From: a bacterium
Lineage (GTDB): Bacteria > Elusimicrobiota > Elusimicrobia > UBA1565 > UBA9628
Direction of reading: 5' to 3'
DNA: 64,000 nucleotides
Assembly (NCBI GenBank): GCA_021782205.1
Contig: JAJXVH010000007.1
Span: 1 to 64,000, forward strand
Part shown: one piece after another, positions 16,906 to 54,631 of the stretch
Layout of the letters: every line of letters begins with the position of its first letter
Numbering within the stretch: position 1 is the first letter of the stretch
Notes under the pieces: model-generated
Databases searched by the model: none
Seen by the model: the letters and a program-made list of their open reading frames with translations, nothing else
Told to the model about the DNA's origin: nothing
Made by a program: the position numbers and the translations under genes

Positions 16906-16906
16906 C

Positions 16907-24558: not shown

Positions 24559-24924
24559 ATGGCCAAGAAGAACGCGAAGAAGGGCGGAAAGACGAAGGAT
24601 TCCAGCAAGCTAAAAAAAGGCAAGTTGCTGTCCCGGGTCAAGAAGGACGCCTCGGTGTTCCTGAGCTCGGAGGAGGGCAAGGTCACCAAGGAAAATGTCG
24701 TCAAGACGGCTGCGGCTCTCGGCATCATCGGCGCGGCCCTGCTGAAGGCCTCGCCCGCGCCCGCGGCCCACGGAAACTATCTGCACAATTCCGGCGGAGT
24801 CGGGTCGCATACCAGCCATGGCTCACACGGATCTCACGGCTCCCATGGTTCCCACGGTTCCCACGGTTCCCACGGTTCTCACGGCTCTCATTGCCGCGGT
24901 GGGTGGTGCAACCCGAGATGCTGA
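24559..24924 (+). CDS. hxsA: His-Xaa-Ser repeat protein, HxsA type (probable modified substrate)
   Basis: A 121-residue protein with a Lys-rich N-terminus, a leader-like helix (DASVFLSSEEGKVTKENVV), a hydrophobic AAALGIIGAALL segment ending in SPAPAAHGNY, and then a His-Gly-Ser repeat core. Residues 82-111 read GSHTSH followed by eight GSH units. The tail has three cysteines (C112, C117, C121). This is the layout of HxsA proteins, whose repeats are the proposed targets of HxsB/HxsC. I chose ATG 24559 because GGAGG lies 8 nt upstream; an upstream GTG at 24538 gives a poorer start. The adjacent D/B genes on one side and radical SAM genes on the other make it the most likely substrate of the locus. 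Confidence 0.85.
   Translation: MAKKNAKKGGKTKDSSKLKKGKLLSRVKKDASVFLSSEEGKVTKENVVKTAAALGIIGAALLKASPAPAAHGNYLHNSGGVGSHTSHGSHGSHGSHGSHGSHGSHGSHGSHCRGGWCNPRC
24802..24891 (+). repeat. 9-nt tandem repeat encoding Gly-Ser-His
   Basis: About ten imperfect copies of a 9-nt unit (consensus GGT TCC CAC) in frame within the HxsA gene. Identical units in the middle (several GGTTCCCAC in a row) and wobble variants at the edges show that the array is young and could change length by slippage. Confidence 0.9.
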
Positions 24925-26065: not shown

Positions 26066-27200
26066 AATCCACGCCGCCTATGGTCCCGCGGAACTGGCGC
26101 GTCTGCGTGCTTTGGGGTTGGCGACGAATAAGGAAATTCGCCGATTTAAAGTCGCCGTAAATACCGCCTGTCCGTTGCGCTGCGATTACTGCTTCATCGA
26201 CAAGGATTCCGGTGAAACGATCTCTTGGGAGCACGTGGCCGGACTTGTGCGCTTCCTGCTGTCTTCACCCGGCCACGTGAAGAAACTTCTGTTGTACGGT
26301 GGAGAGCCGTTTCTGAATTTCGCGCTGGTGCGCGAGATCGCACTCTACGCCCGCGCCGAGGCGCTCAAGGCCGGAAAGGATTTGGATTTGTCGATCTGCA
26401 CCAGCGCGGCTCTCCCGTTGCGCACCGAATGGCTGGAATTCCTGCGCGACCAGCGGTTCTTCTTATCAGTCAGCATGGACGGAGACGCCGCGACCCATGA
26501 CGCTCATAGACACGACAAGGGCGGCGTCGGTTCTCATGCGCGCATGATTCCGAATCTGCCGCCGATTTTCGAATCGATCGGTCGCCGCCGCGCGATGGCG
26601 ATTCAATGCGTGCATCCCGGCAATGTCGAGAAAATGCTCGACAACTTCAAAACCCTCGCTGGTTATGGATTCGAGAATATTGAAATTGAAGTCATTCATG
26701 GGTTCGGCTGGAAAGACAAGAAGCATCTTTTTCGCCCAATGATGCAGAGAGTGTTGGACTGGGTGTGGGAGGAGGCCCGGGCGGGGCGGCGACGCTTTGT
26801 CGTTTGTTCGCTGGTGCCGCTGATGCTCAAGGATGGCGTCGTTCGCGAGGATTGGTGCCCGTTCCACTCATCGATGGAAACGTACCCTGACGGCAGCTTT
26901 TCATTCTATCCGTTCGCGTTCGTGGATTGGGATGGACGCAGACGCTCCAAAGTGGGGGACGCCTCCGGTGGAATTCCGCCGCGTTTCCAGGATTGCTCAT
27001 TCGACCTGGGATCGGATAAATGTCGGAACTGCACCACCGATTACTATAAGAATCCGTCCGTGAACGAAGGCAACGATCCCTATCGCTGGCGCACCGAGAT
27101 GGCGCGTGCGTTCATGGACAAGGTCGCAATGGTCGCGCGAACCGATCCGACGATGAAGGAATATCTGAAGGAGGCGCTGATTCGGTGCCGCATCAGCTGA
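26043..27200 (+). CDS. Radical SAM protein, anSME/SPASM-like
   Basis: A 385-residue enzyme with C43-x3-C47-x2-C50 in NTACPLRCDYCFIDKDSG, LLYGGEPFLNFALV and FLSVSMDGDAATHDAHR. Later cysteines lie in VREDWCPFHSSME (after DGSFSFYPF), and in FQDCSFDLGSDKCRNCTTDYY, enough for auxiliary clusters of the SPASM kind. I start it at ATG 26043, preceded by GAGGAA; a longer reading to 25995 would extend further into the previous gene. It overlaps the TPR-radical SAM fusion by 16 nt. Related SPASM proteins modify peptides or sulfatases. No sulfatase is visible here, so a peptide substrate is more likely. Confidence 0.83.
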   Translation: MDAPAPAEIHAAYGPAELARLRALGLATNKEIRRFKVAVNTACPLRCDYCFIDKDSGETISWEHVAGLVRFLLSSPGHVKKLLLYGGEPFLNFALVREIALYARAEALKAGKDLDLSICTSAALPLRTEWLEFLRDQRFFLSVSMDGDAATHDAHRHDKGGVGSHARMIPNLPPIFESIGRRRAMAIQCVHPGNVEKMLDNFKTLAGYGFENIEIEVIHGFGWKDKKHLFRPMMQRVLDWVWEEARAGRRRFVVCSLVPLMLKDGVVREDWCPFHSSMETYPDGSFSFYPFAFVDWDGRRRSKVGDASGGIPPRFQDCSFDLGSDKCRNCTTDYYKNPSVNEGNDPYRWRTEMARAFMDKVAMVARTDPTMKEYLKEALIRCRIS

Positions 27201-30200
27201 CGTTGCTGGGATCCTCGCCCAATGCCGTGCTGCGCCGCGGCGCGGTGAAGGCGAACCTGATCCACCACCTGGCGCACACGGGTGGAACGAACGTCCTTCG
27301 ACGGATCGGGCGCGCTTACGCGCCGCCGCGGGATTGGATTCCTGCGTCCGGACGTCCGGTTTCTGCTTCGACGGCGAGAGCGTTTGACGCCGCCTTCGGC
27401 GTTGCGACCCCGCGTCTCTCCCGCCGCCATCCCGTCCTCGCCACGCTGGCGCGCGCCGCGGGCCGCGATGAGTTCTGGGCCCATTTCGGCCTTGCCTTCC
27501 ACTTCTTGCGCGTCTGGGAGGGAGATGAGCCGTTTCGCGACGCTCTGGCGCACGCCGACGCGGCGCTGCGCTTCGAGCCGGACTGGGCGTGGGGGTATCT
27601 CCTACGCGGGGAAATAAAGCGCTCGCTGATTGATTACGCGGGCGCGGCCCTCGACCTGCACCGGGCCGCCGCCCTCGACCCGGGTTGGTCCTGGGCCGAA
27701 GGATTTCTTTCGCGGGCGCTTTTCCAGCGCGGCACCGACGCTTCGGGCCTGGAGCCTTTGGACCGAGCGGTGACCCTGGGCCCGCGCGAAGGTTTTTTAC
27801 GCTGCTGGCGCGCGGAAGCGTATCGCCGTCTGGGCCGGACGTCGGAGGCTCAGCGTGAATTTAGCGAAGGGTTGAGCCTGGATCCGCTCTATGACCAGGG
27901 CTATGGCTGGCGCGCGCGCCTGCTGGACGCGCAGGGCCGCCATGACGAGGCTGCCGCGGATTTGCGTCGCGGCATCGACTTGTGTCCGCATTTTGAAAAG
28001 GCTCATCGGCAACTTGTGCGCTCCCTGCGCGGGGCCGGTAAGACGGGCGCGGCCCTGCGCGAGCTTGACCGCGCCGCGACGCTCAATCACCGCAATAACT
28101 GGCTGGGTGTCTGGCGTGTCGAGGGTCATCCGGATGACGCGACGGCCCGCCAAGCGCTGGCTGAGATCGATGCGCATCTGGCGCGCCGTCCCCGCGATGC
28201 GCGCGCGCTAGCCTGGAAGGGCGAAACGCTGGCCCAGATCGGACGGCTGACCGAGGCAATCGACATCCTCGACGCCGCGCTGAATCTCAAGGCGGACGAC
28301 GCCTGGGCGTTGTGTTGGCGAGGCGAGGCCCTGTTGGGATTGGGCCGCGTCGCGGAAGCGCGGGCGGACCTGGACCGCGCGATTGTCCGCGACGCCTCCT
28401 ACGGACGCGCGTGGGCCTGGCGAGGTCGCGTGCGGCTCCTCTGCGGCGATTTCGAGGGGGCTGAAAATGACCTGACCAGGGCGCTGTCGGTCAAGAGAGT
28501 CGAGTACTCCTGGATATGCGCCTGGCGCGGAGAAGCAAGGCTCGAACTCGGCCGACTCGAGGACGCGACCCGCGACTTTGACGCCGTCCTCGCGCTTGAC
28601 CCAGGCCAAGCGCGCTTCCGACGGCTGCGGGCACGCGCGGCGCGCGGCGAGGCGGCGGGCGCGCAATCCGATCTTGACGCGGCGCGTGTGTCCTCCGATT
28701 TCGCTTTCGAGTCTTCGACGCCCGTACTCTGGGGTCATCTGCCGTGGCGGACGATTCTGGCGGTCGAGGAGCGGCGTCTTGCGGGCGACGCCCGGGGCGG
28801 TCTGCGCCGTCTAAATCCGGTCGTGCGCCGCCATGGCGGAGAGGCCCCCTGGCTCTACATTCTGCGCTACCGTCTGCGGCGCGCGCTGGGCGCGGCCAAC
28901 GCGCACCGTGACGTCGATCTCGCTTTCCGCCGTGATCCGAACTCCGGCTGGATCGCAGGCTTGGTGGCGGCTCCGCCATCCGCGGCGCGGCAAGCTCTTC
29001 TCTTGCGCGATTCCTGGAGGGGATTCGCGGACGACGCCTCTTGCGCGCCCCTCCACGCCTATCACGGGCATGATCTTTTCCGGCGAGGCGACGCGACGGG
29101 AGGACTGAAAGCGCTTGAGCGCGCGGTCGGTCTGGAACCGTCGGCGTGGATCCTGGCGTGGCTCGGTGAGGCTCTTCGTTCCGCAGGGCGCCCTGAGGAA
29201 GCGCGCGCGGCGTTGGATCGTGCCCTCGCTCTCGATGCGCGCTATGACAACGCCTGGGCTTGGCGCGCGACGTTGAAGCTTGCCGAAGCGGACGCCGCGG
29301 GCGCATTGACGGATCTGCGGCGTGCCATTGCGCTGCGGCCTACCGCTCGAGCGCTCCATGAGTTGGCCCGGACTTTGCGCGCCCTAGGTCGAACCGAGGA
29401 TTCGCTGGACGCGCTGGCTAGCGCGGCGCGACTCAATGCCGAGCTTGGCTGGTCTGGGCTTCGCGACGAGGCCGCCCCGCAGGCTTTAGAGGAAATCCGG
29501 GCGCTACGTGTTCGCCGCGACGGGCCGCGACTGCGGGAATGGGAGGCCGACGCTCTTCTTCGCCTCGGTCAGCCGGGGCAGGCGCTGGCGATTCTAAAGG
29601 GCGCGCGCTCCGCGTGGGCGCGAACGCGCCGGGCCGAGGCCCTTTTACAGCTGGAAGGTCCATCGTCCCGCGCTCTTGAAGAGGCGCTGGCGGCATCTCG
29701 CGGAGACCCGCGTTGGGCCAAGAGCCGAGCCGTGGCGGCGCAGGCCACTTTGCGCGCGGGCGACACGGCTGCGGCCGCCGTCCATGCCGCGGCGGCCGTC
29801 CGGCTCAACCCCTTTTCCGCGCGGCTGCGCGTTCTGCGCGCCGAGGCGCTGGCCGCGTCCGGCCGACGCCGCGCGGCGAAACGCGAGTTGGAGCGCGCGC
29901 GCGCTTTGGCTCCGGGCTACGCGTTGGCGCGGCAACGACTGGAAGAGCTTCAATTCGGACGACCCATCGACGCGCCGTCGCTTATTCCTGCTTCCGATCC
30001 GATCGGCGGCGAGCCGAAGTCATTGGAATTTTTTGTCAATTATTCCTGCAACGCCAAATGCCCGTTCTGTTTTAATCCCCCGGATGCCTCCGCCGAGCTT
30101 GAGCGGGGCCTGCCTTTGCGGGAATTAGCCGCGCGCCTCCTGTCCGGCTGGCGCGAAGGTTATCGTGCCGTCAAATTTATCGGCGGTGAAGTCACCGTGC

Positions 30201-30973
30201 GGGAGGATCTGCCTCAGATCCTCGCCGCGGCCCGGCAGATCGGCTACCGCTCTATTCAGTTGACGACCAACGGCCTGCGTCTCGCCGACCCGGCTTATGC
30301 GCGGCGCTTGGTCACGCTCGGCGTTAATCGCGTGCGTTTTTCCGTCCATGGGCATCTTTCGGAACTTCATGACCGGCTGGTGGGCGTTCCGGGGGCGCTC
30401 GCGAAAATTGAACTGGCGGCCGGCCACTTGCGGCCGCTCGGGGTGTCACTTGGCGTCAACTACGTCTTGAATCGAGTGAACGTTGGAGCATTTCCGGAAA
30501 CCCTCGACTGGCTTTACGGTTCCTTCGGGGTCGACGACGTGATTGTCTATTTCTTGCGCTATCAGGGCTTTGGGGCCCTGCTTGAAAATAAGAACTCGCT
30601 CAAGCTTTCGTTTTCGGAGGCGGTCGGGCCCGTGCGGGAAGGCCTTTCCCGTTTGCGCGCGCGCGGGACCTTGCGAATGCCGCAATTGATTCATTTTACG
30701 CCCTGCGTGGCCCCGGAATGGACGAAATTGATGGCCGATTGGACCCGGGACCCTGCCGGCAGCGGTCAAGGCAATACATCCGAGGACCGCGTGACGATGC
30801 CCGACGGTACGACCGGCTTGATCCATGCGGTGACCAACAGCGGCAAACGGCCCGTGGCCGCCTGCGCGTTCTGCGCGATCCGTGAGCGCTGTCTGGGTGT
30901 CGAGGAAAACTACGTCTCCGAGTTCGGGGAGAATGAATTTCATCCGCTGCGCCTCGCGGAGGTGGCCGCATGA
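27185..30973 (+). CDS. TPR-radical SAM fusion protein
   Basis: A 1262-residue protein, GTG start. Residues about 110-930 are tandem TPR-type helical repeats of roughly 34 residues with a recurring W-x-WRG signature (CWRGEALLGLGRVAEARADL, WAWRGRVRLLCGDF). An atypical unit near residue 300 reads HRNNWLGVWRVEGHPDD. The radical SAM domain is C-terminal, with C955-x3-C959-x2-C962 in NYSCNAKCPFCFNPP, IGGEVTVREDLP (GGEV instead of GGEP), FSVHGHLSELHDRLVGVPGA, HFTPCVAPEW, and cysteines in AACAFCAIRERCLGV for an auxiliary cluster. The TPR part probably docks a partner or substrate protein. It is paralogous to the stand-alone TPR protein at 35825 and, in its radical SAM half, to the genes at 14651 and 30970. 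Confidence 0.88.
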   Translation: MPHQLTLLGSSPNAVLRRGAVKANLIHHLAHTGGTNVLRRIGRAYAPPRDWIPASGRPVSASTARAFDAAFGVATPRLSRRHPVLATLARAAGRDEFWAHFGLAFHFLRVWEGDEPFRDALAHADAALRFEPDWAWGYLLRGEIKRSLIDYAGAALDLHRAAALDPGWSWAEGFLSRALFQRGTDASGLEPLDRAVTLGPREGFLRCWRAEAYRRLGRTSEAQREFSEGLSLDPLYDQGYGWRARLLDAQGRHDEAAADLRRGIDLCPHFEKAHRQLVRSLRGAGKTGAALRELDRAATLNHRNNWLGVWRVEGHPDDATARQALAEIDAHLARRPRDARALAWKGETLAQIGRLTEAIDILDAALNLKADDAWALCWRGEALLGLGRVAEARADLDRAIVRDASYGRAWAWRGRVRLLCGDFEGAENDLTRALSVKRVEYSWICAWRGEARLELGRLEDATRDFDAVLALDPGQARFRRLRARAARGEAAGAQSDLDAARVSSDFAFESSTPVLWGHLPWRTILAVEERRLAGDARGGLRRLNPVVRRHGGEAPWLYILRYRLRRALGAANAHRDVDLAFRRDPNSGWIAGLVAAPPSAARQALLLRDSWRGFADDASCAPLHAYHGHDLFRRGDATGGLKALERAVGLEPSAWILAWLGEALRSAGRPEEARAALDRALALDARYDNAWAWRATLKLAEADAAGALTDLRRAIALRPTARALHELARTLRALGRTEDSLDALASAARLNAELGWSGLRDEAAPQALEEIRALRVRRDGPRLREWEADALLRLGQPGQALAILKGARSAWARTRRAEALLQLEGPSSRALEEALAASRGDPRWAKSRAVAAQATLRAGDTAAAAVHAAAAVRLNPFSARLRVLRAEALAASGRRRAAKRELERARALAPGYALARQRLEELQFGRPIDAPSLIPASDPIGGEPKSLEFFVNYSCNAKCPFCFNPPDASAELERGLPLRELAARLLSGWREGYRAVKFIGGEVTVREDLPQILAAARQIGYRSIQLTTNGLRLADPAYARRLVTLGVNRVRFSVHGHLSELHDRLVGVPGALAKIELAAGHLRPLGVSLGVNYVLNRVNVGAFPETLDWLYGSFGVDDVIVYFLRYQGFGALLENKNSLKLSFSEAVGPVREGLSRLRARGTLRMPQLIHFTPCVAPEWTKLMADWTRDPAGSGQGNTSEDRVTMPDGTTGLIHAVTNSGKRPVAACAFCAIRERCLGVEENYVSEFGENEFHPLRLAEVAA

Positions 30974-31935
30974 AGACAGACGACCCCACCCTCGAGTTGT
31001 TTCTCAATTATGCCTGCCAGGCGAAATGCGGATTCTGCTATAACCCGCCTATCGACGATCAGCTCCTGCGCCTCGAGCTTTCCTTTGAACAGGCCGCGGC
31101 CGCCCTCTACCAAGCTTCGCATGGCGGCACGCGTCGCCTGAATCTTCACGGAGGTGAAGTGACTCTCCGTGATGACCTGCCGAAAATTGTACGCCTCGCG
31201 CGCAAGCTTGGTTTCATCGACATCACTTTGGTCACCAACGGCGTGCGTCTTGGCGACGGCCGCTACGCGCGCTCGCTCGCGTCTGCGGGCTTGACCAGCG
31301 CGCGCCTCTCCATCCATGCGCCGAACGCCCCGGCGCATGACGCGATTGTTCAAGTGCCCGGGGCTTTTGTGCGCGCGCGGCGCGCGATGGCCCACATGGA
31401 GAAGCTCGGCGTCGCGGTGGGAATTAACTTCGTGCTCATTGCGGAGAATGCTTCTCTCTTGCCGGAGTTCCTGAAGATGTTCGTCGTTGACGCTGGAGTC
31501 AAGGACGTCATCGTGTATTTCCCGCATGAACGCGGGATGATGGCGCTAAATGCCGCGCGTCTGTCGATGTCCTATCAGGACACGCATGCGCACCTGCTGG
31601 ACGCGGCCGCGATGCTGACGGCAGCGGGGCGGCGCGACGCGCTAAAGATCGCCAATGTCCCACCCTGCGCCGCTCCGGAACTTCTGGATGTCCTTCTTGA
31701 TTGGGAGCGCTCTCATGAAGGTTCTCCCGCCGCGATGCTTCACCCGGAAGGGCATGAGTCCGATCTTTCCGCCATGAAGGACGGACAACGGCGGCCGATC
31801 GCCGCATGCCGATCTTGCACGCTCTCCGCGCGATGTCGAGGAGTCGAATCCGAGTACCTGCGCCGGCACGGAGACGCCGCTTTACGCCCATTGGACGCCG
31901 TCCCGTTCTTGCCGCCCGTGGGAGCCCGGCGATGA
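30970..31935 (+). CDS. Radical SAM protein
   Basis: A 321-residue enzyme starting in a 4-nt overlap with the fusion gene. The motif is C16-x3-C20-x2-C23 in NYACQAKCGFCYNPP, with LHGGEVTLRDDLP (GGEV variant), LVTNGVRLGDGRY and LSIHAPNAPAHDAIVQVPGA. C-terminal CRSCTLSARCRGVESEYL provides the auxiliary set. It is a near relative of the radical SAM half of the preceding protein, including the NPP after the third cysteine and the GGEVT variant. The two genes look like products of one duplication, with the TPR part attached to only one. Confidence 0.87.
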   Translation: MKTDDPTLELFLNYACQAKCGFCYNPPIDDQLLRLELSFEQAAAALYQASHGGTRRLNLHGGEVTLRDDLPKIVRLARKLGFIDITLVTNGVRLGDGRYARSLASAGLTSARLSIHAPNAPAHDAIVQVPGAFVRARRAMAHMEKLGVAVGINFVLIAENASLLPEFLKMFVVDAGVKDVIVYFPHERGMMALNAARLSMSYQDTHAHLLDAAAMLTAAGRRDALKIANVPPCAAPELLDVLLDWERSHEGSPAAMLHPEGHESDLSAMKDGQRRPIAACRSCTLSARCRGVESEYLRRHGDAALRPLDAVPFLPPVGARR

Positions 31936-38622: not shown

Positions 38623-39830
38623 GCGATCCGCGACGTGCTCCATCGGCCCCCGTCCGATATACGCGCGACTCGCCGGAATACGCGCAGTTCCGGCCATATT
38701 TGGCGCTGGAGCCGTCGGACAATGCGCCAATTCTCATCGAGGGCATTCTGCAGACCTGGTCTCAACTCGATAATAATACCTCGGGTCCTTGGTACGAGCG
38801 TTCTTTGCCCGCAGCCTTCCGCAGGGATTTCTTATGGATTCCCGGTTTGGAGGCCTATGCGACCGCTTCGGCCGATGCGATTGCGGTATCCATCCGCTCT
38901 GAGGCGTGGGAGCGCCTGCTCAAATTTAAACGGAGCTTTTCGAGTCTCGAGTTCAAACAGAAGATCGCGTTGCTCCGTCTCTTGGGCATGCTCGGTTTTT
39001 ACCGCGACAACGCCGAATTGCTGCGCGGTGAGGGGGCGACGCGCGGGCCCTTGGACGTTCGGAAAGCGGAAATGGAATATCTGCGGGCCAACAACCAAGT
39101 CCTGCTGGACGAACCAGGCCTTCAGCAGGATTATAGTGTGATGTATTCCGTCGCGGAGAGGGCGGCTCCCGGGACCGCGATAAGGTTCCTTGCCGCCGTC
39201 AAATCCATGACGCTCTACGCCGAGCATGGGCAGAATCACGAGCGCCTGCGCGCTGCGGAAAGAATCGCGAGCGAAACGCTGGCCCAGCAACGGACGCGGG
39301 TGCCTCCAAGCGCTTACCTGTCCATGGAAAGCCGCTACTGGCGAACCGTCAGCTATCTCCCCTTTCTCGACGGGGATGTTGCCGAGGTCGACCGGCGTCT
39401 AGATCGCGCGGAGGACTCGGCTCGGCGCGCGATGGCCGTCGGCTCGCTGGAAGAGGCCGCTTTTGCCCGCGATATCCTCTACGCGGTGCTGGCGACTCGA
39501 ACGACGACCGACGTGCGCACGCGGCGTCACGCGCGCGCGTTGCCGCGGCTGGCGGAGATGGTCGCAATGGATCCTTGCGGCGCATGGCAACGACTATGGC
39601 GGGGCATCGTCTATTTCGAGCTTGGCCGCCTAGAGGAAGCGCGCGAAAACCTCTTGATGAGCGTGCGTCTGGCGCCGCCAGGCCTCGGAAAAATCTGCGC
39701 TTGGCTTGACCGATGCTTGGAGGGGTTGAACCGCCATGAGGAAGCCGCTCGATGGCGTAAACGCGCCGCGATGACGAGCCCCGCCGGGGCGACCGGCGCG
39801 GCGGTCGAGAGGGAGAACGGACGGCCATGA
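38619..39830 (+). CDS. Helical protein of unknown function (paralogue 2 of 2)
   Basis: A 403-residue paralogue of the preceding gene. PILIEGILQTWSQLDNN aligns with PLMIQGVRHAWDVFALP, IPGLEAYATASADAIAVSIR with VEGCEAYAVFSAEDIPESLR, MESRYWRTVSYLPFLDGD with NSKFWRCVSYESYLRGR, and AMDPCGAWQRLW-type with LDPEGAWQRYE. The conserved YWRTVSY and GAWQR stretches mark the family. The C-terminus resembles one or two TPR units. It is coupled on both sides, the downstream gene being the first PhyH-type dioxygenase. Confidence 0.7.
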   Translation: MSDPRRAPSAPVRYTRDSPEYAQFRPYLALEPSDNAPILIEGILQTWSQLDNNTSGPWYERSLPAAFRRDFLWIPGLEAYATASADAIAVSIRSEAWERLLKFKRSFSSLEFKQKIALLRLLGMLGFYRDNAELLRGEGATRGPLDVRKAEMEYLRANNQVLLDEPGLQQDYSVMYSVAERAAPGTAIRFLAAVKSMTLYAEHGQNHERLRAAERIASETLAQQRTRVPPSAYLSMESRYWRTVSYLPFLDGDVAEVDRRLDRAEDSARRAMAVGSLEEAAFARDILYAVLATRTTTDVRTRRHARALPRLAEMVAMDPCGAWQRLWRGIVYFELGRLEEARENLLMSVRLAPPGLGKICAWLDRCLEGLNRHEEAARWRKRAAMTSPAGATGAAVERENGRP

Positions 39831-40621
39831 ATTTGTTGCCGGCGCAAAAGCGCGCACTGATGTCGAAGGGATATGTACGGCTTCCCGCCGTCGCCGGACG
39901 GGCCCGAGTCGACGCGGCGCTGCGGCAAATAAACCGCGCGATCGGTCGATCCTCTACATACGGCCGCAACGAAATGCAAAGCTCCGGCGCGGACGGAGTG
40001 TGGGAAGAACTCTCCCGGCATCCCGATATCGAATCTCTTTTTTTTGCGACGCCGGTAAAATCCATCGTGGAGTCATTGCTGGGAAAGCACTGCATCGATC
40101 CCGACCTTCAGCGCACCGCGTTGCTTCGTTTTCCGCAAGCTCACGGGGCTGTCGAACGTACGGCCTTCCATATCGACGGATTTGAATATGGCGGCGGCGC
40201 GGGCGCCCGCGCGGCACCTCCGCAAACGCACACCTTGGCCGTGGCTGTATTTCTCAGCGACACGCGCGACGAGGAGGCAGGAGGGCTGGGCCTTATCCCC
40301 CAATCCCACCGCGCGCTTGAACGCCATTTTCGCGCGCACCCTGAAGCGGTGGAAGCGCGGGAGATGCCGAGCATACGGTTGGCCAAGCCCGTGCGTTTAC
40401 GTGCGCGGCCGGGCGACGCCTATCTTTATCATCACCAAGTGGCGCACAGCGCTTTTGCGTTCAGAAATCTCTCGCCGCGCATCATCTGCGCAGCGGTCTT
40501 TTGGGTCAAGCGCGTTGGCCACGACGCCGTCTGGAAGGAGACGCTGACGGACTTGTGGGGGGAGTGGCCGGGGCTACGGGCGCTTTCCGGTTCCGCGCGA
40601 AGGGGGCGAGTTCGGCGATGA
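39827..40621 (+). CDS. Phytanoyl-CoA dioxygenase (PhyH)-family Fe(II)/2-oxoglutarate oxygenase 1
   Basis: A 264-residue enzyme with a PhyH-type iron-binding triad: H115-x-D117 in AFHIDGFEYGGG and the distal H207 in YHHQVAHSAFAFRN, followed by RIICAAVFWVK. The segment AVAVFLSDTRDEEAGGLGLIPQSH is the core strand and G-rich loop of the family. Members hydroxylate lipids and natural products, or act on amino acids held on carrier proteins; some halogenate when the Asp is replaced, but here the Asp is present. It ends the polycistron together with its paralogue. I infer hydroxylation of the peptide product. Confidence 0.82.
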   Translation: MNLLPAQKRALMSKGYVRLPAVAGRARVDAALRQINRAIGRSSTYGRNEMQSSGADGVWEELSRHPDIESLFFATPVKSIVESLLGKHCIDPDLQRTALLRFPQAHGAVERTAFHIDGFEYGGGAGARAAPPQTHTLAVAVFLSDTRDEEAGGLGLIPQSHRALERHFRAHPEAVEAREMPSIRLAKPVRLRARPGDAYLYHHQVAHSAFAFRNLSPRIICAAVFWVKRVGHDAVWKETLTDLWGEWPGLRALSGSARRGRVRR

Positions 40622-41379
40622 GCCTCACGGATCGAAGCAAGCGCGAGTTTATACGGCGGGGTTATCTGACCCTGCGCGGAATCGTCCCGCGGATGAAAAT
40701 CGGTCCCGCGCTACGCGTTATTAATCAGAAGCTCGGCTCCGGTTCGAGGAAAGGCGCCAGCCCCGAGCATGTGCCGTTTTTCTCCGATCTGTTCAACTCC
40801 CCGGAACTGATGTCTCTATTGATGGAGACGAAGCTTTGGCCTGTCGTCGAGAGTCTCCTTGGTCCTGGATGCGCCCAGCGTCCGCAAGCCGAAGTCACGC
40901 TGGGCTTCCCGAACATGGACGCCTCCGCTCATTTTAACGCCAAGGAGCTTCACATCGACGGGCTTCCGGACAAGGGCCGCCGTGAGACCTATACGCTGAA
41001 CGTCGGCGTATTTCTCAGCGACGTTCCCGGTCCGAACATGGGTAATTTCAAGGCATGCCCCGGATCGCACCTGTGGGTTGCCGAGCATGCGCGTCGTTTC
41101 GGGCCTTATGGCATTAACCCGGCGTTGAGGGACCTGCGCGGCACCGCCGGAGAAACCGATGAGCTCATCGCGCGTGCCGGCGATGCGGTGGTTTGCCACT
41201 ACAATCTTGTTCATGCGCGCCAGTGGAACGCCTCGCCGCACATTCGCTATGCCGTATTTTTTCGCGTCTATGCGAAGGGGCACCTCACACGATGGCAATA
41301 CGTGATGCGAGAACCCTGGGTCGAGTGGGCGGGGCTGGCCCATCTTCGGCCGAAGAACGCTGGGAGCACTGCGGACTAG
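40618..41379 (+). CDS. PhyH-family Fe(II)/2-oxoglutarate oxygenase 2
   Basis: A 253-residue paralogue of the preceding oxygenase, coupled by ATGA. H112-x-D114 in ELHIDGLPDKG and the distal H199 in NLVHARQWNASPHIRYAVFF form the iron site; LNVGVFLSDVPGPNMGNFKACPGSH is the core. It shares the N-terminal pattern KREFIRRGYLTLRGIV with the PhyH domain start of its neighbour (KRALMSKGYVRLPAV). Its stop shares the four bases CTAG with the stop of the convergent halogenase-like gene, so it closes the plus-strand cluster with no room for a terminator. Confidence 0.82.
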   Translation: MSLTDRSKREFIRRGYLTLRGIVPRMKIGPALRVINQKLGSGSRKGASPEHVPFFSDLFNSPELMSLLMETKLWPVVESLLGPGCAQRPQAEVTLGFPNMDASAHFNAKELHIDGLPDKGRRETYTLNVGVFLSDVPGPNMGNFKACPGSHLWVAEHARRFGPYGINPALRDLRGTAGETDELIARAGDAVVCHYNLVHARQWNASPHIRYAVFFRVYAKGHLTRWQYVMREPWVEWAGLAHLRPKNAGSTAD

Positions 41380-43127
41380 CGCCGCGACGTTCGTCGCGTT
41401 TTTGCCCGCAGTTTGAGCACTCCCTGCAGCGCCAACTCCTTGAGGAAGGCCAAGGAGCGGTCGCGCAGCCAGTGTTCGGGGACGCCGCGGCTGGCGGCTC
41501 GCTGGCGAATTTCCGAAAATGTTCGAACTCCGTCGATGCCCGAAATGAATTCCAGATGATGCGGGGAAACGATGCGCCGCGGGTTGAAGACATCCTCCAA
41601 CGCATCGGTCGCCGGATGTTTCAAAAATCGGATTCTCCGGGCCGTGTGCATGACCCCTTTCCCGTAAAATGGCATGAGCGCCGGCTCCACTTGAATCGGA
41701 AAGAGAAAGCGCGGCACGAGCCGGTCCCCCGGGATGCCGCGTCCAGGGTTTGCCTCGACGTCGCCTTTGAGGACGTCTCTGTAGAAATCCTGGTCGCTTA
41801 GTAGCGTGTATTCCTCTTTGAGCAGGTCCTCATGGTGAAGTCGGTCATAGTATTGGCTCAACCCCGATGAGATCGTGATGAACGCGGTTCGATCCGAGAG
41901 GGATACGGGCAGGTGAGCGCGCTGGATATCTTTCGCCTTTCTCCACCACTTGGCCGTGTTGCGATCGTTGCCGTACCAAAAAACGGCCATGGCAAAAAAG
42001 CGCGCGGAGAACTCCCGGTTGAATTCGTTGTAGTCTCGCCACAAGAGCGCGCGTCCGCTTTCGGTCGGTTCAGTCCAGTGCGTCAGCAAAGTGTAGGCGG
42101 CGCGCTGCGCGCCGAGATGCGCCAAAAGAGCGCCCGAGGAGAGGATCGGATCGACAAACACGGCCGCGTCTCCCGCGGCCAGCCAGCCGGGGCCGGAAGC
42201 CGCGACGCTGAAGTACGACCAATCATTTTGAATAAAAAAATCTTGACCAGTTCCATCGAAGTCGCGAACCTGTTCGGCGTTCTTCAGTAAAGGCCATATT
42301 TCTTTGCATTTTCGAAGTTCGCGGAAATAGAGTTCGCGTATTCCTGCGCCGCCCTTGCGCGCGTGCTCCGCGTTCGTGACAAATCCGATCGAGATTAGAT
42401 CCTGATCGATCGGTATATACCAGAACCAGCCGTGCGCGGTGCTGCAAATAAATATTTTTGTCTCGTATTTGTAGCCGGTGTAGCGGAACTTCCATTGCGC
42501 CTTCTTAAAGTACGCAAAGCCAGCGACGTTTTTGAGTCCGGGGTGATGCTTGCGGATATCCCGATATTTGGAGAGAAAGCCGTTCTGTCCGCTGCAGTCG
42601 GCGACGAATTCGCTGCGAATCTCACGAATTCTGCCGTCGGCCCCGCGAAGCGAAATCCCCGCGATGCGCCGCCCTTCTTCCAGAATCGTGAGTGCTTGTG
42701 CTCCTCGTTCCACCCGAACTCCGCATTTTTCCGCGTGGCGCAGAAGAATCTCATCGTAGCGGGAGCGGCGGACTTGGAAACTGGCGTTGACCACCGCCGC
42801 CCTCTCGGCCTCGCTATCCGCGAGCGCCTTTTTATTCGCGTCTTTAAATATGTTCTGCCAAGGTTTGCGATTCTTCCCCCAGACGAAGACCGCCCCGATT
42901 TTTCTCGGGAAGCCAGCACGAACCACGTCGTCGTAGACGCCCATCTCCTTGAGCACCGGGTTGATCCCGGGCTGCAGAGACTCGCCGACATGGTGCCGCG
43001 GCCCAGAACACTTTTCAATGACGACGACGTCGCGCTGAGGAGCGTATTTCTTCAGGAGCGTCGCCAGAGTCGTTCCCGCGGGCCCGCCTCCGACGATGAT
43101 TATGTCCGCTCGATCTGCGCGCGCCAT
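41376..43127 (-). CDS. Flavin-dependent halogenase-like enzyme with PqqD-like C-terminal domain
   Basis: A 583-residue FAD enzyme. Residues 12-18 form the dinucleotide motif VGGGPAG. HVGESLQPGINPVLKEMG (46-63) and GFPRKIGAVFVWG (72-84, with Lys76) fit flavin-dependent halogenases. The halogenase signature WxWxIP is present as W234-F-W-Y-I-P239, and GDAAVFVDPILSSG is the second FAD motif. The last 80 residues (FISGIDGVRTFSEIRQ, then WLRDRSLAFLKELALQGVLK) look like a PqqD-type winged helix, the fold used for peptide recognition in RiPP enzymes. I start it at ATG 43127, with a GGGGGG stretch upstream. A TPR-extended paralogue lies at 52244. Confidence 0.78.
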   Translation of the reverse strand: MARADRADIIIVGGGPAGTTLATLLKKYAPQRDVVVIEKCSGPRHHVGESLQPGINPVLKEMGVYDDVVRAGFPRKIGAVFVWGKNRKPWQNIFKDANKKALADSEAERAAVVNASFQVRRSRYDEILLRHAEKCGVRVERGAQALTILEEGRRIAGISLRGADGRIREIRSEFVADCSGQNGFLSKYRDIRKHHPGLKNVAGFAYFKKAQWKFRYTGYKYETKIFICSTAHGWFWYIPIDQDLISIGFVTNAEHARKGGAGIRELYFRELRKCKEIWPLLKNAEQVRDFDGTGQDFFIQNDWSYFSVAASGPGWLAAGDAAVFVDPILSSGALLAHLGAQRAAYTLLTHWTEPTESGRALLWRDYNEFNREFSARFFAMAVFWYGNDRNTAKWWRKAKDIQRAHLPVSLSDRTAFITISSGLSQYYDRLHHEDLLKEEYTLLSDQDFYRDVLKGDVEANPGRGIPGDRLVPRFLFPIQVEPALMPFYGKGVMHTARRIRFLKHPATDALEDVFNPRRIVSPHHLEFISGIDGVRTFSEIRQRAASRGVPEHWLRDRSLAFLKELALQGVLKLRAKTRRTSRR

Positions 43128-43236: not shown

Positions 43237-44028
43237 TCACCAAGGCGTGAGCTGCCGGTCTCGAAAAAAACAGCCTTGGGGTCCATTGTCGGGAGAAAGG
43301 GCGAGCCAGACGACCGTGTCCGCGCCTTCCGCCGGGCTACGCCGGGCATTGGGGCCGCCCATGCGTGTTCTCATCCAGCCTGGACACACCGAATTGATCA
43401 GCACGTTCGTGCCGCGCAGTTCTCCCGCGAAAATGCGAGTCACGGCGTTCAGGGCGGCCTTTGATATCCGATAAGCGGGCCGACCTCCCGCCATGTCCGC
43501 GAGTCGGCCGTCGCCGCTGGAAACGTTGACCACCCGCCCATAGCCGCGCTCTCTCATCTTGGGGACCACCGCTTGGCAGACGCGTAAGGCCCCGAGCGTG
43601 TTTGTTTCAAACGTGCGGAGCAGGGTCTCCGTTTTGGCCGCGAAAATCGAATTGGGACCGATGCCCTCGTCCGTCGGCGACGCGTCAAGGAAGACGCCGG
43701 CATTGTTGATGAGAATGTCGATATGGCCGAAGCGACGTATCGCGAAGTTCGTCGCGGCCGTGATGCTGACAGGCCGCCGCACGTCCAAACGGCAGGGAAA
43801 CACCTTCACGCGGTCTTCCGTCCAGAGGCGATGCGCCGCCTCCTCTCCATCGGCCCGGTTTCGGCTGCCTAACACCACCGTCACGCCATTCTTCGCGAGC
43901 AGACGACAAACCTCTAATCCTAGGCCGCGATTGCCGCCGGTGACGAGCGCCGTCTTCGAGTGAAATTCGGGGCGTTCCGTAGGATATTTGATGCGGTAGA
44001 TTGTAGCACGCTGATAAGATACAATCAA
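43237..44028 (-). CDS. Short-chain dehydrogenase/reductase (start uncertain)
   Basis: A classical SDR of about 263 residues. TALVTGGNRGLGLEVCRLL is the cofactor site, RLDVRRP and ILINNAGVFLDAS follow, and the catalytic Ser and Tyr-x3-Lys lie in VVNVSSGDGRL and YRISKAALNAVTRIF. VCPGWMRTRMGG is the usual loop. No ATG or GTG lies where the family normally starts. The TTG at 44028 is the only reasonable start close to the divergent gene at 44032; a longer reading would run inside that gene. It is followed after 110 nt by the halogenase-like gene on the same strand, so the two may be co-transcribed. The substrate is unknown. Confidence 0.78.
   Translation of the reverse strand: MIVSYQRATIYRIKYPTERPEFHSKTALVTGGNRGLGLEVCRLLAKNGVTVVLGSRNRADGEEAAHRLWTEDRVKVFPCRLDVRRPVSITAATNFAIRRFGHIDILINNAGVFLDASPTDEGIGPNSIFAAKTETLLRTFETNTLGALRVCQAVVPKMRERGYGRVVNVSSGDGRLADMAGGRPAYRISKAALNAVTRIFAGELRGTNVLINSVCPGWMRTRMGGPNARRSPAEGADTVVWLALSPDNGPQGCFFRDRQLTPW
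43997..44025 (+). promoter_or_regulatory. Candidate promoter for the second TPR cluster
   Basis: TACAAT at 44020-44025 (five of six) with TAGATT 17 nt upstream (three of six). The -10 box ends only 6 nt before the ATG at 44032, so a transcript from it would be leaderless or nearly so. It overlaps the 5' end of the divergent dehydrogenase gene. The sequence match is modest. Confidence 0.35.
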
Positions 44029-50119: not shown

Positions 50120-52247
50120 CCCGCTCGACGCGCTGTTCGGCGACGGAGAGGAAGCCGGTGCCGGTGAGTTGTTCCGGGGCTATATCTCTCACGCGCTTTT
50201 ATTTTATCGTCAGGGAGCCGGAGTCGATTACCCCGAACTGCGCCGTCTCGGCCGCGAGTTGAGGCTAGGGTCCGGCGTGGCGACCGGCCGCGCGCTCGGC
50301 GAGGTGCCCGATCGTCCGGGCTGGCGTCTGGCCGCGCAGGCCTTGCGTCATTCAAGCGAGCAGGGTGCCCGTTCTCTTTTGACTCGCGCGATTTCACAGT
50401 CGCCGCGAGAGGCCGCGTTCCGTGTCTTGCGTGGTTTCGTGTCCGGAGAGCAGTCTTTGGGATCGCGTCGGCTCGGCGCGGCGTCCGAGGCGGATTTCAG
50501 GGCGGCGCTGGAACTGGATGGTGATCAGCTTTGGGCGCGCATGGGCCTGGGGATGGCGCTGGAGATGCGCCGACGCTACGTCCAGGCGATCGCGCAATTC
50601 GACGCCGCCGCGAGCCTGGCGCCCGAGTGGTCTTGGCCTTTGGTCTTTCGCGGGGTCTGCCTTTGGTATCTTGCGGAATTTCGGAGCGCGGTCGACGTCT
50701 TCGGGAAGGCCGCTCGCTTGGATCCGCGTGGAGAAATGCCGCTGCTATTTTCGGCCAGGGCGAGGGCGGATTTGCGAGACCGCAGGCTTGTCGGCGATCT
50801 TGACCGCGCCCTGCGGCTGGCGCCCGACTCGGGCTTCACGAAGTCGTGGCGCGGCCGTGCCATGTTCGTGCTCCGGCGCACTCCGGAAGCTCTTACCGAT
50901 CTTCGCGCGTCGATCCGGGCGCTCCCGGATTACGATCGAGGCTGGTCCTGGCTGGGGGTTTCGCTGGTCGAGAGCGGGCAGCCGCGTGAGGCCGTGGACT
51001 TGCTGATGAAGGCACGCGCGCTCAATCCGTACTATCCAACGACGCTCTATCCTCTCTCGGGTGCCTTGATGGCTTTGGGCCGATGGGGCGAGGCGTCTCG
51101 GATCATGCGCGAAGCTTCGGTGGTTGATCGCTCGGGAGTGTGGGTCGAACATCGCATCAGCATGTCGCATCCCAATCCGGCCGCGCTGCGCTCACGCCGG
51201 GATCTGGACCGTCTGTTGTCTCGGCGCCCGCGTTTGGGTTGGGCGTTGGCCTGGCGCGGACAGACCGAGCTCTTGCTTCAAAATTACTGGCGCGCGCTCG
51301 ATGACCTCTCGCAGGCGGCACGGCTCGACGCTCGCGATCCGTGGGCGCGGCTTTGGCGGGGGGAGACACTGCGGCGGCTTGGTTTGCGGCGCGAGGCGGC
51401 GCGAGACTTCGCCGCCGCCCTGCGCCTGGACTCCCGTCTGTCCTGGGCCCACGCCGGTCTGGGCGCGTGCCTGTTGGAAGACGGTCGTGCGCGCAGGGCG
51501 CTGGTGAGTTTGGAGCGCGCCCTGCGTCTTCAGCCGCGCTGCGGTCCTGCTCACGCATTGCGGGGCACGGCGCTCCTCGCCGTCGGCCGGCCTAACGAGG
51601 CGTCGGCGGCTTTCGCGGAGGCTTTGGAACTGCACCCGCAGGATCGCTGGGTCGCGCGACGTCTAGCCGAGACTCTGGCCTTGTGCGGCCAATGGAATTG
51701 CGCGTTGGAGGCGCTGGGCGTTCGCGGCTCTTCGGACGCCGATGCCGCCTTTGAATCCTTTCTCCTGAGCCGCGCGGGACGCGCGAAAGAGTCCGCACGC
51801 TCACTGCGCGAAGCCTTGCGACGCAATCCGGCCCAGCCTTTGGCGCTGTATCTGCGCGAGCGACAACGGATCGGGCGTCTTGCGTCCGCGCCGAACGCCC
51901 TGCGCCTATTGCGGGTTCAAGATCCCTTGGCGGCATTTTCCAAGGAAGTGTGCGTGCGCACGGCCCGCGGGGCGGGACGTGGCGCTTGCGCCGACGCGCT
52001 CCAACGTGGCGACCTGCAGGACGCCTGTAGGAGCCTGGAAGACGCTGATTCCGCTCGTGATGGAGCGCTACTGCGTTTGCGCGCCTGGTTGAAGCTATCA
52101 TGCGGGGATTGGCCGGGAGCCTTGGAAGACGCGGGGCGCGCCCTGGATTCGACCCTCGATCCGGAAGATTCCTCCGCGCGTCTTGTGCGCGACCGCGCGC
52201 TCGACGCCTTGCGCCGCCGACGATCCGGGCCTATACTGAGCCGATGA
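50103..52247 (+). CDS. TPR protein
   Basis: A 714-residue repeat protein started at TTG 50103 with GGTGGAG upstream and a 17-nt overlap. Repeats carry the Trp signature, for example WPLVFRGVCLWYLAEFRSAV, WSWLGVSLVESGQPREAVDL, ALAWRGQTELLLQNYWRALD and WARLWRGETLRRLGLRREAA. The atypical unit is GVWVEHRISMSHPNPAALRS. It differs from the three preceding paralogues in its N-terminus and lacks their C-terminal F-P-Y-L-L-N motif. It is coupled by ATGA to the halogenase-like gene, so the two products are likely to be made together and may interact. Confidence 0.82.
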   Translation: MTLRPDPLDALFGDGEEAGAGELFRGYISHALLFYRQGAGVDYPELRRLGRELRLGSGVATGRALGEVPDRPGWRLAAQALRHSSEQGARSLLTRAISQSPREAAFRVLRGFVSGEQSLGSRRLGAASEADFRAALELDGDQLWARMGLGMALEMRRRYVQAIAQFDAAASLAPEWSWPLVFRGVCLWYLAEFRSAVDVFGKAARLDPRGEMPLLFSARARADLRDRRLVGDLDRALRLAPDSGFTKSWRGRAMFVLRRTPEALTDLRASIRALPDYDRGWSWLGVSLVESGQPREAVDLLMKARALNPYYPTTLYPLSGALMALGRWGEASRIMREASVVDRSGVWVEHRISMSHPNPAALRSRRDLDRLLSRRPRLGWALAWRGQTELLLQNYWRALDDLSQAARLDARDPWARLWRGETLRRLGLRREAARDFAAALRLDSRLSWAHAGLGACLLEDGRARRALVSLERALRLQPRCGPAHALRGTALLAVGRPNEASAAFAEALELHPQDRWVARRLAETLALCGQWNCALEALGVRGSSDADAAFESFLLSRAGRAKESARSLREALRRNPAQPLALYLRERQRIGRLASAPNALRLLRVQDPLAAFSKEVCVRTARGAGRGACADALQRGDLQDACRSLEDADSARDGALLRLRAWLKLSCGDWPGALEDAGRALDSTLDPEDSSARLVRDRALDALRRRRSGPILSR

Positions 52248-54631
52248 CCATACGCCGCAAAAATGCCTCTCCGGTCGATGCGCCTTGGGACATGATCGTG
52301 GTCGGCGGCGGACCGGCGGGGAGCACCCTGGCGGGATTGGCGCGGCGTCATGATGCGTCGGCGCGAATATTGGTGTTGGAGAAAGATCCCTTTCCGCGGC
52401 ATCATGTGGGCGAGTCGCTTCTTCCAGGGTCGATCCCGGTGCTTAAAGAGCTGGGAGTTCACGAAAAAATTGACGCGGGCGGGTTTCCTCGAAAGATGGG
52501 CGTGATCTTTGTTTGGGGCGACGACCGCACACCATGGGACGCGGACTTCAATAATCTCAACGTTGAGATGCTTCGCAAGCACGGGCGGATGCTGGACGCG
52601 GAATTCTCCTGGCAGGTGCTGCGTTCTCGTTACGATCAAATTCTGCTCGATCATGCCGCTGAGCTCGGCGCCGAAGTCCGTTATGGTTGGAAAGCGGTCC
52701 GGGCGGTGGAGGAAAATGGGCGAGTCGTCGGCGTCGAAGTCGAAAGAGACGGGCGACGGGATGTCCTGCGCTGCGGCACTCTCGCCGACTGTTCGGGACA
52801 GTCGGGATTTCTGTCCGCGCAACGCGGCACGCGCGTATTCAACGAGGAACTGCGCAACGTCGCCGGTTACGCCTACTACAAGGGTGCGAAGTGGAAATAC
52901 GAAGTGTCGGGACATCCCGATAAGACTAAGATTTTCATCTGCTCGGTTCCCGAAGGGTGGTTCTGGTATATCCCTCTTGCTCCCGATGTCGTTTCAGTCG
53001 GACTCGTGTCCAAGGCGTCTTACGTGAAAAATAATCCGCGCGGGCATGACTACCGGCAATTCTTTTTGGACGCGCTGTCGCGGTGTTCGGAGATCGCACC
53101 CCTGTTACGCGACGCCCGTCTCTTGGATGATGTCGATCCGAACGTTCCCGGTAAGGATTTCTTTTCCGCGTCGGACTGGTCCTATCTCAATGAGCGGTCC
53201 TGTGGGGAGGGCTGGCTGGCGGCGGGAGATGCGGCGTTCTTTCTCGACCCGCTGCTCTCTTCGGGCGTGATGATGGCGCATCTGTCCGGACATCGCGCGG
53301 CCTATACCTGGTTGACCGCGCGGCGCGAAGACGACGCGGAGATTCGCTCCCTGTTGTGGTCGGATTACGACCGCTTCTGCAAGGAAGTCGCCGGCGCGTT
53401 TATGGCCCTGGTGCGCTTCTGGTACCGTCACGATCCGAATGCGCGCGCCTGGTGGTCCGAAGCGCGCGCCGCGTTGGGCGCGCGAACGCCGCTGGATTTG
53501 GACGACAAGACCGCTTTTGTCGCCGTGGCGGCAGGACTGACGTATTATTTTGAACGTGCTTATACGTCTCAGAATCTTTTGTTCGGCTCCAGCGGCGCCG
53601 AGCATAGCTGGCAATGGGAAGGCACTAAACTTGAACTAAAAAACTGGACGCGGCAGATTCTGGCGATCGTCGAGACAGGCTTCTTGAAGGCCGATCCCAT
53701 TCGTGATGACAATCTCCGCCGCGCGGAGACCGAGGCCGCGCGCGAGCGCCTCTCCGACGCGTGGATACCCCGCGTGACGCGGCGCATCGAGGAGGAAACC
53801 ACGTTCCTGCCGTTGTCGGCGGATGGCCGGCTGCATCCGGCGCGGCGCTATCGCGTGGTGAAGGCCGAAGGGTTGGACGCGGGTGACGACGCGGTAAATC
53901 CTAAGCGCATCCTGCCGCGATCCTACGCGCGGGCGCTATCGTTGGTCGACGGACGAAGATCGATCGGGGAGATTCGGGAAGAACTTTCGCGGACGTCGGC
54001 TTTGCCGCGGGATATTCTGGACGCCCAGGTGTTTCGCCTGCTGAAGGATTTGGCCGTGCTGGGGGCTGTCGAATGGGAAACGAAGCCAGGCGCTCCCGTC
54101 GGGTTTGTGCGCGCCACAGCCGAGGGTGCCTGGGCGCATTTTCGTCGGGGCGAAGAACTGTTGCGCGCGGGGGACCCCTCGGCCGCCCGGCAGTATTTGG
54201 ATCGGGCTATTTCCGCCGGTGCTCCGGGGCCATGGGCCTATGCCCTCAGAGGCGAGGCTCTTCGCCATCTCCAAAACCCACGTGAGGCGGGACTGGACTT
54301 AGATGAGGCGCTGCGGTTATGCGAATGCGCGACCACCGGGAGCGGGGGCTCGCGTTTGGACGCGTTGCGCGGCCGTTTTGAGGATTCCGTCGAGCGCGCG
54401 ATGATGGAAGACCGCATTCGTCTTTTGCGCGCGAAGCTACGTCTCTCTTCGGGCAACGCGGCTGGAGCGCGTGAAGACGCCGACGCGGCTCTTCGCGCCA
54501 ATCCGCGCCAGTCCGAGGCCCTTGTCGTGCGCGCTCGGGCTGAGATGCTGCTAGGCCGCCTGTCCCAGGCGAAAGAAGATCTCATGGCGGCATTGGCCAT
54601 CGAATCCTCTGGCCTTCGCCACCAAGGCTGA
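52244..54631 (+). CDS. Flavin-dependent halogenase-like enzyme with PqqD-like and TPR domains
   Basis: A 795-residue fusion. Residues 20-26 are VGGGPAG (FAD site), HVGESLLPGSIPVLKELG follows at 54-71, and GFPRKMGVIFVWG contains the candidate Lys84. The halogenase WxWxIP appears as W239-F-W-Y-I-P244, and GDAAFFLDPLLSSG is the second flavin motif. Around residues 540-615 there is a PqqD-like winged helix: LSLVDGRRSIGEIREELS, then DILDAQVFRLLKDLAVLGAV. The last 160 residues are TPR units (GAPGPWAYALRGEALRHLQN). The start at ATG 52244 overlaps the previous stop. It is paralogous to the enzyme at 41376 but has gained the TPR tail, which could attach it to the TPR scaffolds. Confidence 0.8.
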   Translation: MTIRRKNASPVDAPWDMIVVGGGPAGSTLAGLARRHDASARILVLEKDPFPRHHVGESLLPGSIPVLKELGVHEKIDAGGFPRKMGVIFVWGDDRTPWDADFNNLNVEMLRKHGRMLDAEFSWQVLRSRYDQILLDHAAELGAEVRYGWKAVRAVEENGRVVGVEVERDGRRDVLRCGTLADCSGQSGFLSAQRGTRVFNEELRNVAGYAYYKGAKWKYEVSGHPDKTKIFICSVPEGWFWYIPLAPDVVSVGLVSKASYVKNNPRGHDYRQFFLDALSRCSEIAPLLRDARLLDDVDPNVPGKDFFSASDWSYLNERSCGEGWLAAGDAAFFLDPLLSSGVMMAHLSGHRAAYTWLTARREDDAEIRSLLWSDYDRFCKEVAGAFMALVRFWYRHDPNARAWWSEARAALGARTPLDLDDKTAFVAVAAGLTYYFERAYTSQNLLFGSSGAEHSWQWEGTKLELKNWTRQILAIVETGFLKADPIRDDNLRRAETEAARERLSDAWIPRVTRRIEEETTFLPLSADGRLHPARRYRVVKAEGLDAGDDAVNPKRILPRSYARALSLVDGRRSIGEIREELSRTSALPRDILDAQVFRLLKDLAVLGAVEWETKPGAPVGFVRATAEGAWAHFRRGEELLRAGDPSAARQYLDRAISAGAPGPWAYALRGEALRHLQNPREAGLDLDEALRLCECATTGSGGSRLDALRGRFEDSVERAMMEDRIRLLRAKLRLSSGNAAGAREDADAALRANPRQSEALVVRARAEMLLGRLSQAKEDLMAALAIESSGLRHQG

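Follow-up and report, generated by a model that had tools for sequence, protein, structure and literature searches.

The protein FDH1, encoded in an Elusimicrobiota genome beside a large His-Xaa-Ser (Hxs) radical-SAM peptide cluster, appears to be a CmlS/CndH/FasV-type halogenase that uses FADH2 and O2, forms part of this cluster and tailors an HxsA-type peptide, a reading to which we assign a probability of roughly 0.55. The window (the whole stretch of 64,000 nucleotides that was analysed) is contig C114 of a 3.09 Mb genome in 177 contigs that is 95.6% complete, and whose named relatives are Elusimicrobia/Elusimicrobiota MAGs. FDH1 would form hypohalite at FAD and pass it on through Lys76, so that an aromatic residue in one of the cluster's peptides becomes halogenated; the likeliest target is the conserved Trp close to the HxsA end (CRGGWCNPRC). 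The tail of the protein would be an accessory winged-helix domain that serves in docking, to the peptide or to a partner, or in dimerisation, with a leader-binding RRE as one option. Features of the window are listed in Table 1.

Table 1. Features of the window, with positions counted from its first nucleotide.
Feature	Position	Strand	Details
HxsC-like radical SAM protein	17619..18578	plus	146 bits, under cut-off 268
HxsB radical SAM/SPASM maturase 1	21039..22613	plus	469 bits vs cut-off 370; probably starts downstream of 21039
HxsD-like protein	22610..23080	plus	43.8 bits, just below cut-off 50
HxsB radical SAM/SPASM maturase 2	23077..24534	plus	395 bits vs cut-off 370
HxsA-type precursor	24559..24924	plus	121 aa; leader, (SHG)n repeat, end HCRGGWCNPRC
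Radical SAM genes at 24962, 25995 and 30970, TPR/radical-SAM fusion at 27185	24962..31935	plus	syntenic with halogenase loci of other genera
Two PhyH-type dioxygenases	39827..41379	plus	tail-to-tail with FDH1; also adjoin the FDH1 orthologue in G010
FDH1, flavin-dependent halogenase (very probable)	41376..43127	minus	583 aa; open frame and homology
FDH1 C-terminal winged-helix domain (predicted)	41397..41720	minus	residues 470-577; AlphaFold, hhalign, Foldseek
Lys76 codon of FDH1	42900..42902	minus	CmlS K71 by alignment; invariant in 14 relatives
Short-chain dehydrogenase (SDR)	43237..43960	minus	same strand as FDH1, upstream of it
FDH2, paralogous halogenase	52244..54631	plus	46% identical core; same tail domain as FDH1, plus C-terminal TPR repeats

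The FDH1 gene and its catalytic core

The reading frame named in the original prediction is open over exactly those positions, and lies on the minus strand, which the prediction had not given; a Shine-Dalgarno-like GGGGG run stands ~8 bases upstream of the ATG at 43127. All the motifs quoted in that prediction are present in the translation: GFPRKIG, which holds Lys76, WFWYIP at residues 234–239, DGVRTFSEI at residues 532–540, and LAFLKELALQGVL at residues 558–570. FDH1 consists of a FAD/halogenase core (residues ~5–430), a variable linker (431–469), and a PqqD-like winged-helix tail (about 470–577). Because the full protein, tail included, is conserved in 14 clear relatives (41–74% identity over the whole protein), the open frame is not a product of chance. 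The SDR gene was considered as a partner of FDH1, but none was found beside the G010 orthologue.

Pfam searches matched FDH1 to Trp_halogenase (E 4e-32) and FAD_binding_3 (E 6.8e-18), and the GxGxxG FAD-binding motif is present as GGGPAG near residues 13–18, at the N-terminal end. The closest solved sequences in the PDB were FasV (1.3e-54), CndH (3.6e-48), CmlS (2.3e-42) and PltA (5.8e-40), and the overall fold is that of solved halogenases (Foldseek E 6e-34 and TMt 0.85 against FasV). In an alignment to 3I3L, residues E49, K76 and D302 of FDH1 fell on E44, K71 and D277 of CmlS, where the CmlS numbering assumes a 20-residue tag (chain position 91 = K71). These three CmlS residues have reportedly been assigned to catalysis and flavin attachment. 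The original prediction had asked for the lysine to align with that of known halogenases and had named a mismatch as evidence against it; Lys76 aligned with K71, and the mismatch did not occur. K76, E49, D302, WxWxIP and FxDPxxSxG are all invariant among the 14 clear relatives. The lysine is essential in the halogenase BrvH, and WxWxIP has been proposed to stop monooxygenation by such enzymes (PMC5945002). Since K76, WxWxIP and FxDPxxSxG are invariant and the nearest solved relatives are halogenases, we classify FDH1 as a halogenase: judged by sequence, its core is very probably a flavin-dependent enzyme of the CmlS/CndH/FasV group with halogenase chemistry, an assignment that had also been made originally and with which Pfam, the PDB relatives and the conserved motifs agree.

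The Hxs neighbourhood and the candidate peptide substrate

Both HxsB maturases in the window scored above their family cut-off, and the HxsC- and HxsD-like proteins, both below theirs, are relatives of those families. The HxsA precursor is flanked by the second HxsB and the radical SAM gene that follows. Three more small ORFs (18559–18993, 18966–19370 and 20506–21081) are HxsD-like by eye. About ten TPR proteins with a repeated W-x-W-R-G, some of them joined in one protein with a radical SAM enzyme or FDH2, are spread over positions 27185–58113. FDH2 and FDH1-type genes form a conserved pair, which is seen in G010, G020 and G029. A third halogenase-like piece of the genome (G000:C72:18804-19232, L003) was considered as a stand-alone RRE and rejected, being an FDH2 remnant with most of the catalytic core missing. 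Two proteins resemble enzymes of the tetrapyrrole-methylase fold (16847–17626, by Pfam TP_methylase; 59407–60249, by eye and through a G010 homologue); borosin N-methyltransferases share this fold, so a cluster peptide might be methylated on its backbone. A prepilin-peptidase-like membrane protein, recognised by eye at 58107–59501 and at L039 9558-10655, has homologues in the G010 and G047 halogenase loci and is perhaps an export or leader protease.

G020 and G029, which belong to other genera, share with the window the gene order HxsB-HxsD-HxsB-HxsA-rSAM-rSAM-TPR/rSAM-rSAM-FDH-TPRs-FDH2, and the G010 contig agrees with it over the part that is present. HxsA orthologues stand at the matching position in other genera, and the tailed halogenase of G020, G029 and G010 lies inside the radical SAM/TPR operon. 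The halogenase of G047, a genome of a different family, is flanked on either side by radical SAM genes that overlap or abut it, with no HxsB. Among Elusimicrobiota genomes of 2.8–4.6 Mb, with halogenases called at E <= 1e-20, the halogenase and HxsB were 7.8–23.5 kb apart in every one of the nine genomes where a single long contig carries both. Co-occurrence of halogenase and Hxs genes was also seen at the level of whole genomes (13/15 vs 63/280, p 6e-7) and inside the two closest families (13/14 vs 16/27, p 0.03), with both p values uncorrected for relatedness. We therefore assign FDH1 to the Hxs cluster with high confidence, and since a halogenase stands beside the genes for a modified Hxs peptide in many related genomes, this peptide is probably halogenated. 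In the original prediction it was the tail that directly linked halogenation to peptide tailoring; the link itself is likely, on account of the conserved gene neighbourhood, but the tail does not hold up as its basis.

A peptide is modestly favoured as the substrate of FDH1, and HxsA is likely to be that substrate, or one of several. Because tailed halogenases go with HxsA of the CRGGWC[NC]PRC type (4/8 vs 1/25 loci, p 0.008, among related genomes), the HxsA Trp is the leading candidate for halogenation. The simple idea that this Trp is explained by the halogenase is weakened, since Trp-ended HxsA is common without a halogenase. Over 30 related HxsA loci were seen in Elusimicrobiota, and almost every one has an aromatic or RGGWC motif (W, WC, F, Y) at its end. 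HxsA of the CRGGWC type occurs in G005 and G007, two genomes in which no halogenase was detected and whose contigs both break within about 6 kb, and in three Hxs loci from genomes with a tail-less halogenase, HxsA ends in HFSF, with no Trp. FDH1 lies on the strand opposite to the operon and 17 kb from HxsA, which counts against HxsA tailoring. The TPR proteins and other peptides are further possible substrates.

Two alternatives concern the chemistry and the substrate of the core. FDH1 might halogenate a small molecule or a carrier-bound substrate and owe its position in the cluster to a shared-island effect, as its orientation beside the SDR and opposite to the operon might suggest; CndH, CmlS and PltA, the solved enzymes nearest to it, work on small molecules or carrier-bound substrates. 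We consider this unlikely, as there is no NRPS or PKS domain among the neighbouring genes translated or scanned (part of the window), different genera and families keep the place next to Hxs genes, and in three other genomes a tailed halogenase lies within the radical SAM/TPR operon. Still less probable is a peptide monooxygenase, that is, a tryptophan hydroxylase like QhpG or LodB in place of a halogenase. The QhpG and LodB profiles match the core at E 6e-33 and 3e-27, and QhpG, whose structure is closest to CmlS, modifies peptidyl Trp once a radical SAM enzyme has acted (PMC7876137), but the sequence of FDH1 is nearer to FasV, CndH, CmlS and PltA, and its lysine, FxDPxxSxG and the WxWxIP proposed to prevent monooxygenation are all invariant. 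Halogenation of a cluster peptide stays our preferred reading of the core. To our knowledge, the product of Hxs systems is undescribed. The literature searched contained only brief mentions of these systems (PMC9062424). With a halogenase accompanying them across Elusimicrobiota, a concrete product with a shifted mass is predicted.

Fold and distribution of the FDH1 tail

We modelled FDH1 with AlphaFold from a 14-row alignment. The tail had a pLDDT of 91 when modelled alone, and of about 90 for residues 475–570 in the full model, and was predicted to form a beta hairpin at 478–501 (strands 478–487 and 492–501), a strand at 517–520, helices at 522–528, 537–546 and 551–567, and a final strand at 571–575. 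Compared with PqqD proteins of relatives, it gave an hhalign probability of 91% over 51 columns, whereas 20 column-shuffled decoys reached 0.34% at the most; the match spans the helical half only. The PqqD-like pattern that had originally been noticed at the C-terminus thus agrees with the strand and helix order, the pLDDT and the hhalign result, and the model supports a PqqD-like winged helix of beta-beta-beta-alpha-alpha-alpha order. Evidence from sequence for this is genuine but modest: the Pfam PqqD family gave no match to FDH1, either as the full protein or as the isolated tail, and matched the tails of two of the 14 relatives (best E 0.0079).

When the tail profile was searched against 177,635 PDB sequences with hmmsearch, Rv2067c came first (0.064) and PqqD entries second and third (E 0.12 and 0.97); GdmN was not found by this sequence search. 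By Foldseek, the best match of the tail was GdmN (E 2.4e-5 over 116 columns, TM-score 0.52, 19% identity), followed by Rv2067c (E 0.012) and TglHI (E 0.038), a RiPP enzyme together with its partner protein, whereas the lasso RRE TbiB1 with its leader matched weakly, at E 1.2. The closest structural neighbours of the tail are thus not RREs. As a negative control, Foldseek against viral structures gave no match below E 0.1. CmlS is reported to have a winged-helix C-terminal domain as well. Homology of that domain to the FDH1 tail was rejected, given that the sequences did not align past CmlS chain residue ~419 and 3I3L was absent among the best 50 Foldseek matches of the tail. The part of GdmN that is matched should, by its fold, be the C-terminal auxiliary domain. 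This is a dimerisation domain: GdmN pairs as a homodimer through the beta hairpin of the domain, and its activity depends on that hairpin (PMC9633730).

We also compared tails and gene context for halogenases in 77 loci of public genomes, where radical SAM genes were recognised by a simple sequence pattern, CxxxCxxC with a GGEP-like motif after it. In a tree of 86 halogenase cores, 16 of 17 tailed Elusimicrobiota rows formed one clade (100/100) that adjoins Chloroflexota halogenases inside a larger group (100/96), which includes Polyangium-like ones; the remaining row, G025, is on a long branch at the base of the larger group. A full-length profile alignment was collinear to residue ~572 with the Chloroflexota, Dehalococcoidia/Entotheonella and Polyangium-like groups, whose tails have a similar D-G or G-E-R helix signature, and the similarity of tails alone was weak by hhalign (8.5% for Ktedonobacter-type and 75% for Dehalococcoidia-type tails). 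The pattern scan found radical SAM genes in 0/12 Chloroflexota and 0/7 Dehalococcoidia-type halogenase loci. By contrast, 6/10 myxobacterial-type loci had radical SAM genes, and their halogenases stop 30–40 residues past the core, with no tail. Hence, the tail domain does not follow peptide-modifying gene context. Because collinear tails occur without radical SAM genes and tail-less halogenases occur with them, the tail looks ancestral, and neither required for nor confined to radical-SAM contexts.

Two side observations came from these loci. Tail-less halogenases of Myxococcota/Deltaproteobacteria type (L087, L078, L082, L084, L076 and L108) stand beside up to five radical SAM genes and are possibly another halogenated-peptide family. 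Chloroflexota halogenases in L060, L062 and L063 end a conserved operon with ABC transporter, GroEL-like and beta-propeller-like genes, as judged by eye.

The original prediction held that the tail is an RRE, which would bind a RiPP leader, of HxsA or another peptide, and feed the core peptide to the halogenase active site. We regard this as doubtful. The radical-SAM peptide cluster around FDH1, the PqqD-like profile, the PqqD entries in the PDB search and the weak matches to TglHI and leader-bound TbiB1 all speak for it, and the tail would just fall within the exploratory rule of RRE-Finder of at least 50 residues and at least 90% if its score carried over, although a different search was used here and HTH domains are common false positives of that tool (PMC7470986). 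The claim was nevertheless not borne out: the profile match is limited to the helical half, the top fold match is a dimerisation domain, and, mainly, the tail is not tied to radical-SAM contexts, so we do not accept RRE function as established. That the tail is instead a domain for dimerisation or structure like that of GdmN, inherited from the ancestor of this halogenase clade and leaving the choice of substrate to the core, is a plausible if tentative account. The modelled hairpin at 478–501 matches the GdmN homodimer hairpin (PMC9633730), GdmN tops the Foldseek matches, the tail is common to sister clades of other phyla, and the domain attributed to CmlS would be a parallel, but GdmN was not recovered by sequence, nor CmlS among the best fold matches. 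The preferred view of the tail is a broad one, a docking or dimerisation domain that is possibly an RRE. The full proposal, in which FDH1 uses a built-in leader-binding RRE to halogenate the conserved Trp of an HxsA-type peptide, is a long shot. If true, it would give the first halogenated Hxs product and a halogenase with its own RRE, which would be useful for peptide engineering because the characterised RiPP halogenases compared here have no reported embedded RRE with which to find their peptide. For RRE claims in general, the lesson is that a PqqD-like fold in a peptide locus is insufficient if sister enzymes elsewhere share a similar domain.

Comparison with known systems

FasV (8ZOP), CndH (3E1T) and CmlS (3I3L) have the same fold and catalytic residues as FDH1, at 22–30% identity and Foldseek E values of 6e-34 to 1e-29. 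The FasV chain, unlike FDH1, has no tail domain, and the tail of CmlS is not detectably related by sequence to that of FDH1. We know of none of the three that comes from a radical-SAM peptide cluster. PqqD proteins and RREs share with the FDH1 tail the beta-beta-beta-alpha-alpha-alpha winged helix and a DG-x-R-T-x-x-E-I helix signature; the FDH1 tail differs from them in being fused to a halogenase, in having GdmN as its closest solved fold, and in having similar tails outside RiPP contexts. GdmN (7VX0), the best Foldseek match, is a carbamoyltransferase that tailors a polyketide, and hence a different host enzyme.

With the Hxs system (TIGR03976-03978), the window shares two HxsB, HxsC- and HxsD-like proteins, and HxsA with SHG repeats, and its variant has in addition two halogenases, TPR proteins, PhyH dioxygenases and a large number of further radical SAM enzymes. 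The literature searched yielded no published description of halogenases in Hxs loci, and no paper that brings halogenase, PqqD and RiPP together. The RiPP halogenases SrpI, MibH and ChlH are flavin-dependent and act on a ribosomal peptide, as FDH1 is predicted to do, and the PqqD-like tail sets FDH1 apart from them. SrpI has been described as lacking an embedded RRE, and MibH works once the leader is gone (PMC10858898), while ChlH was leader-independent in one study and this was disputed in another (PMC12518702). QhpG and LodB are peptide-modifying, CmlS-like flavoproteins, and QhpG has a radical SAM enzyme as its partner (PMC7876137); FDH1 falls far below the cut-offs of both families (114 of 240 and 96 of 400 bits) and has halogenase motifs. 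Since QhpG reaches a peptidyl Trp with a CmlS-like fold (PMC7876137), access of such a fold to a peptide needs no RRE.
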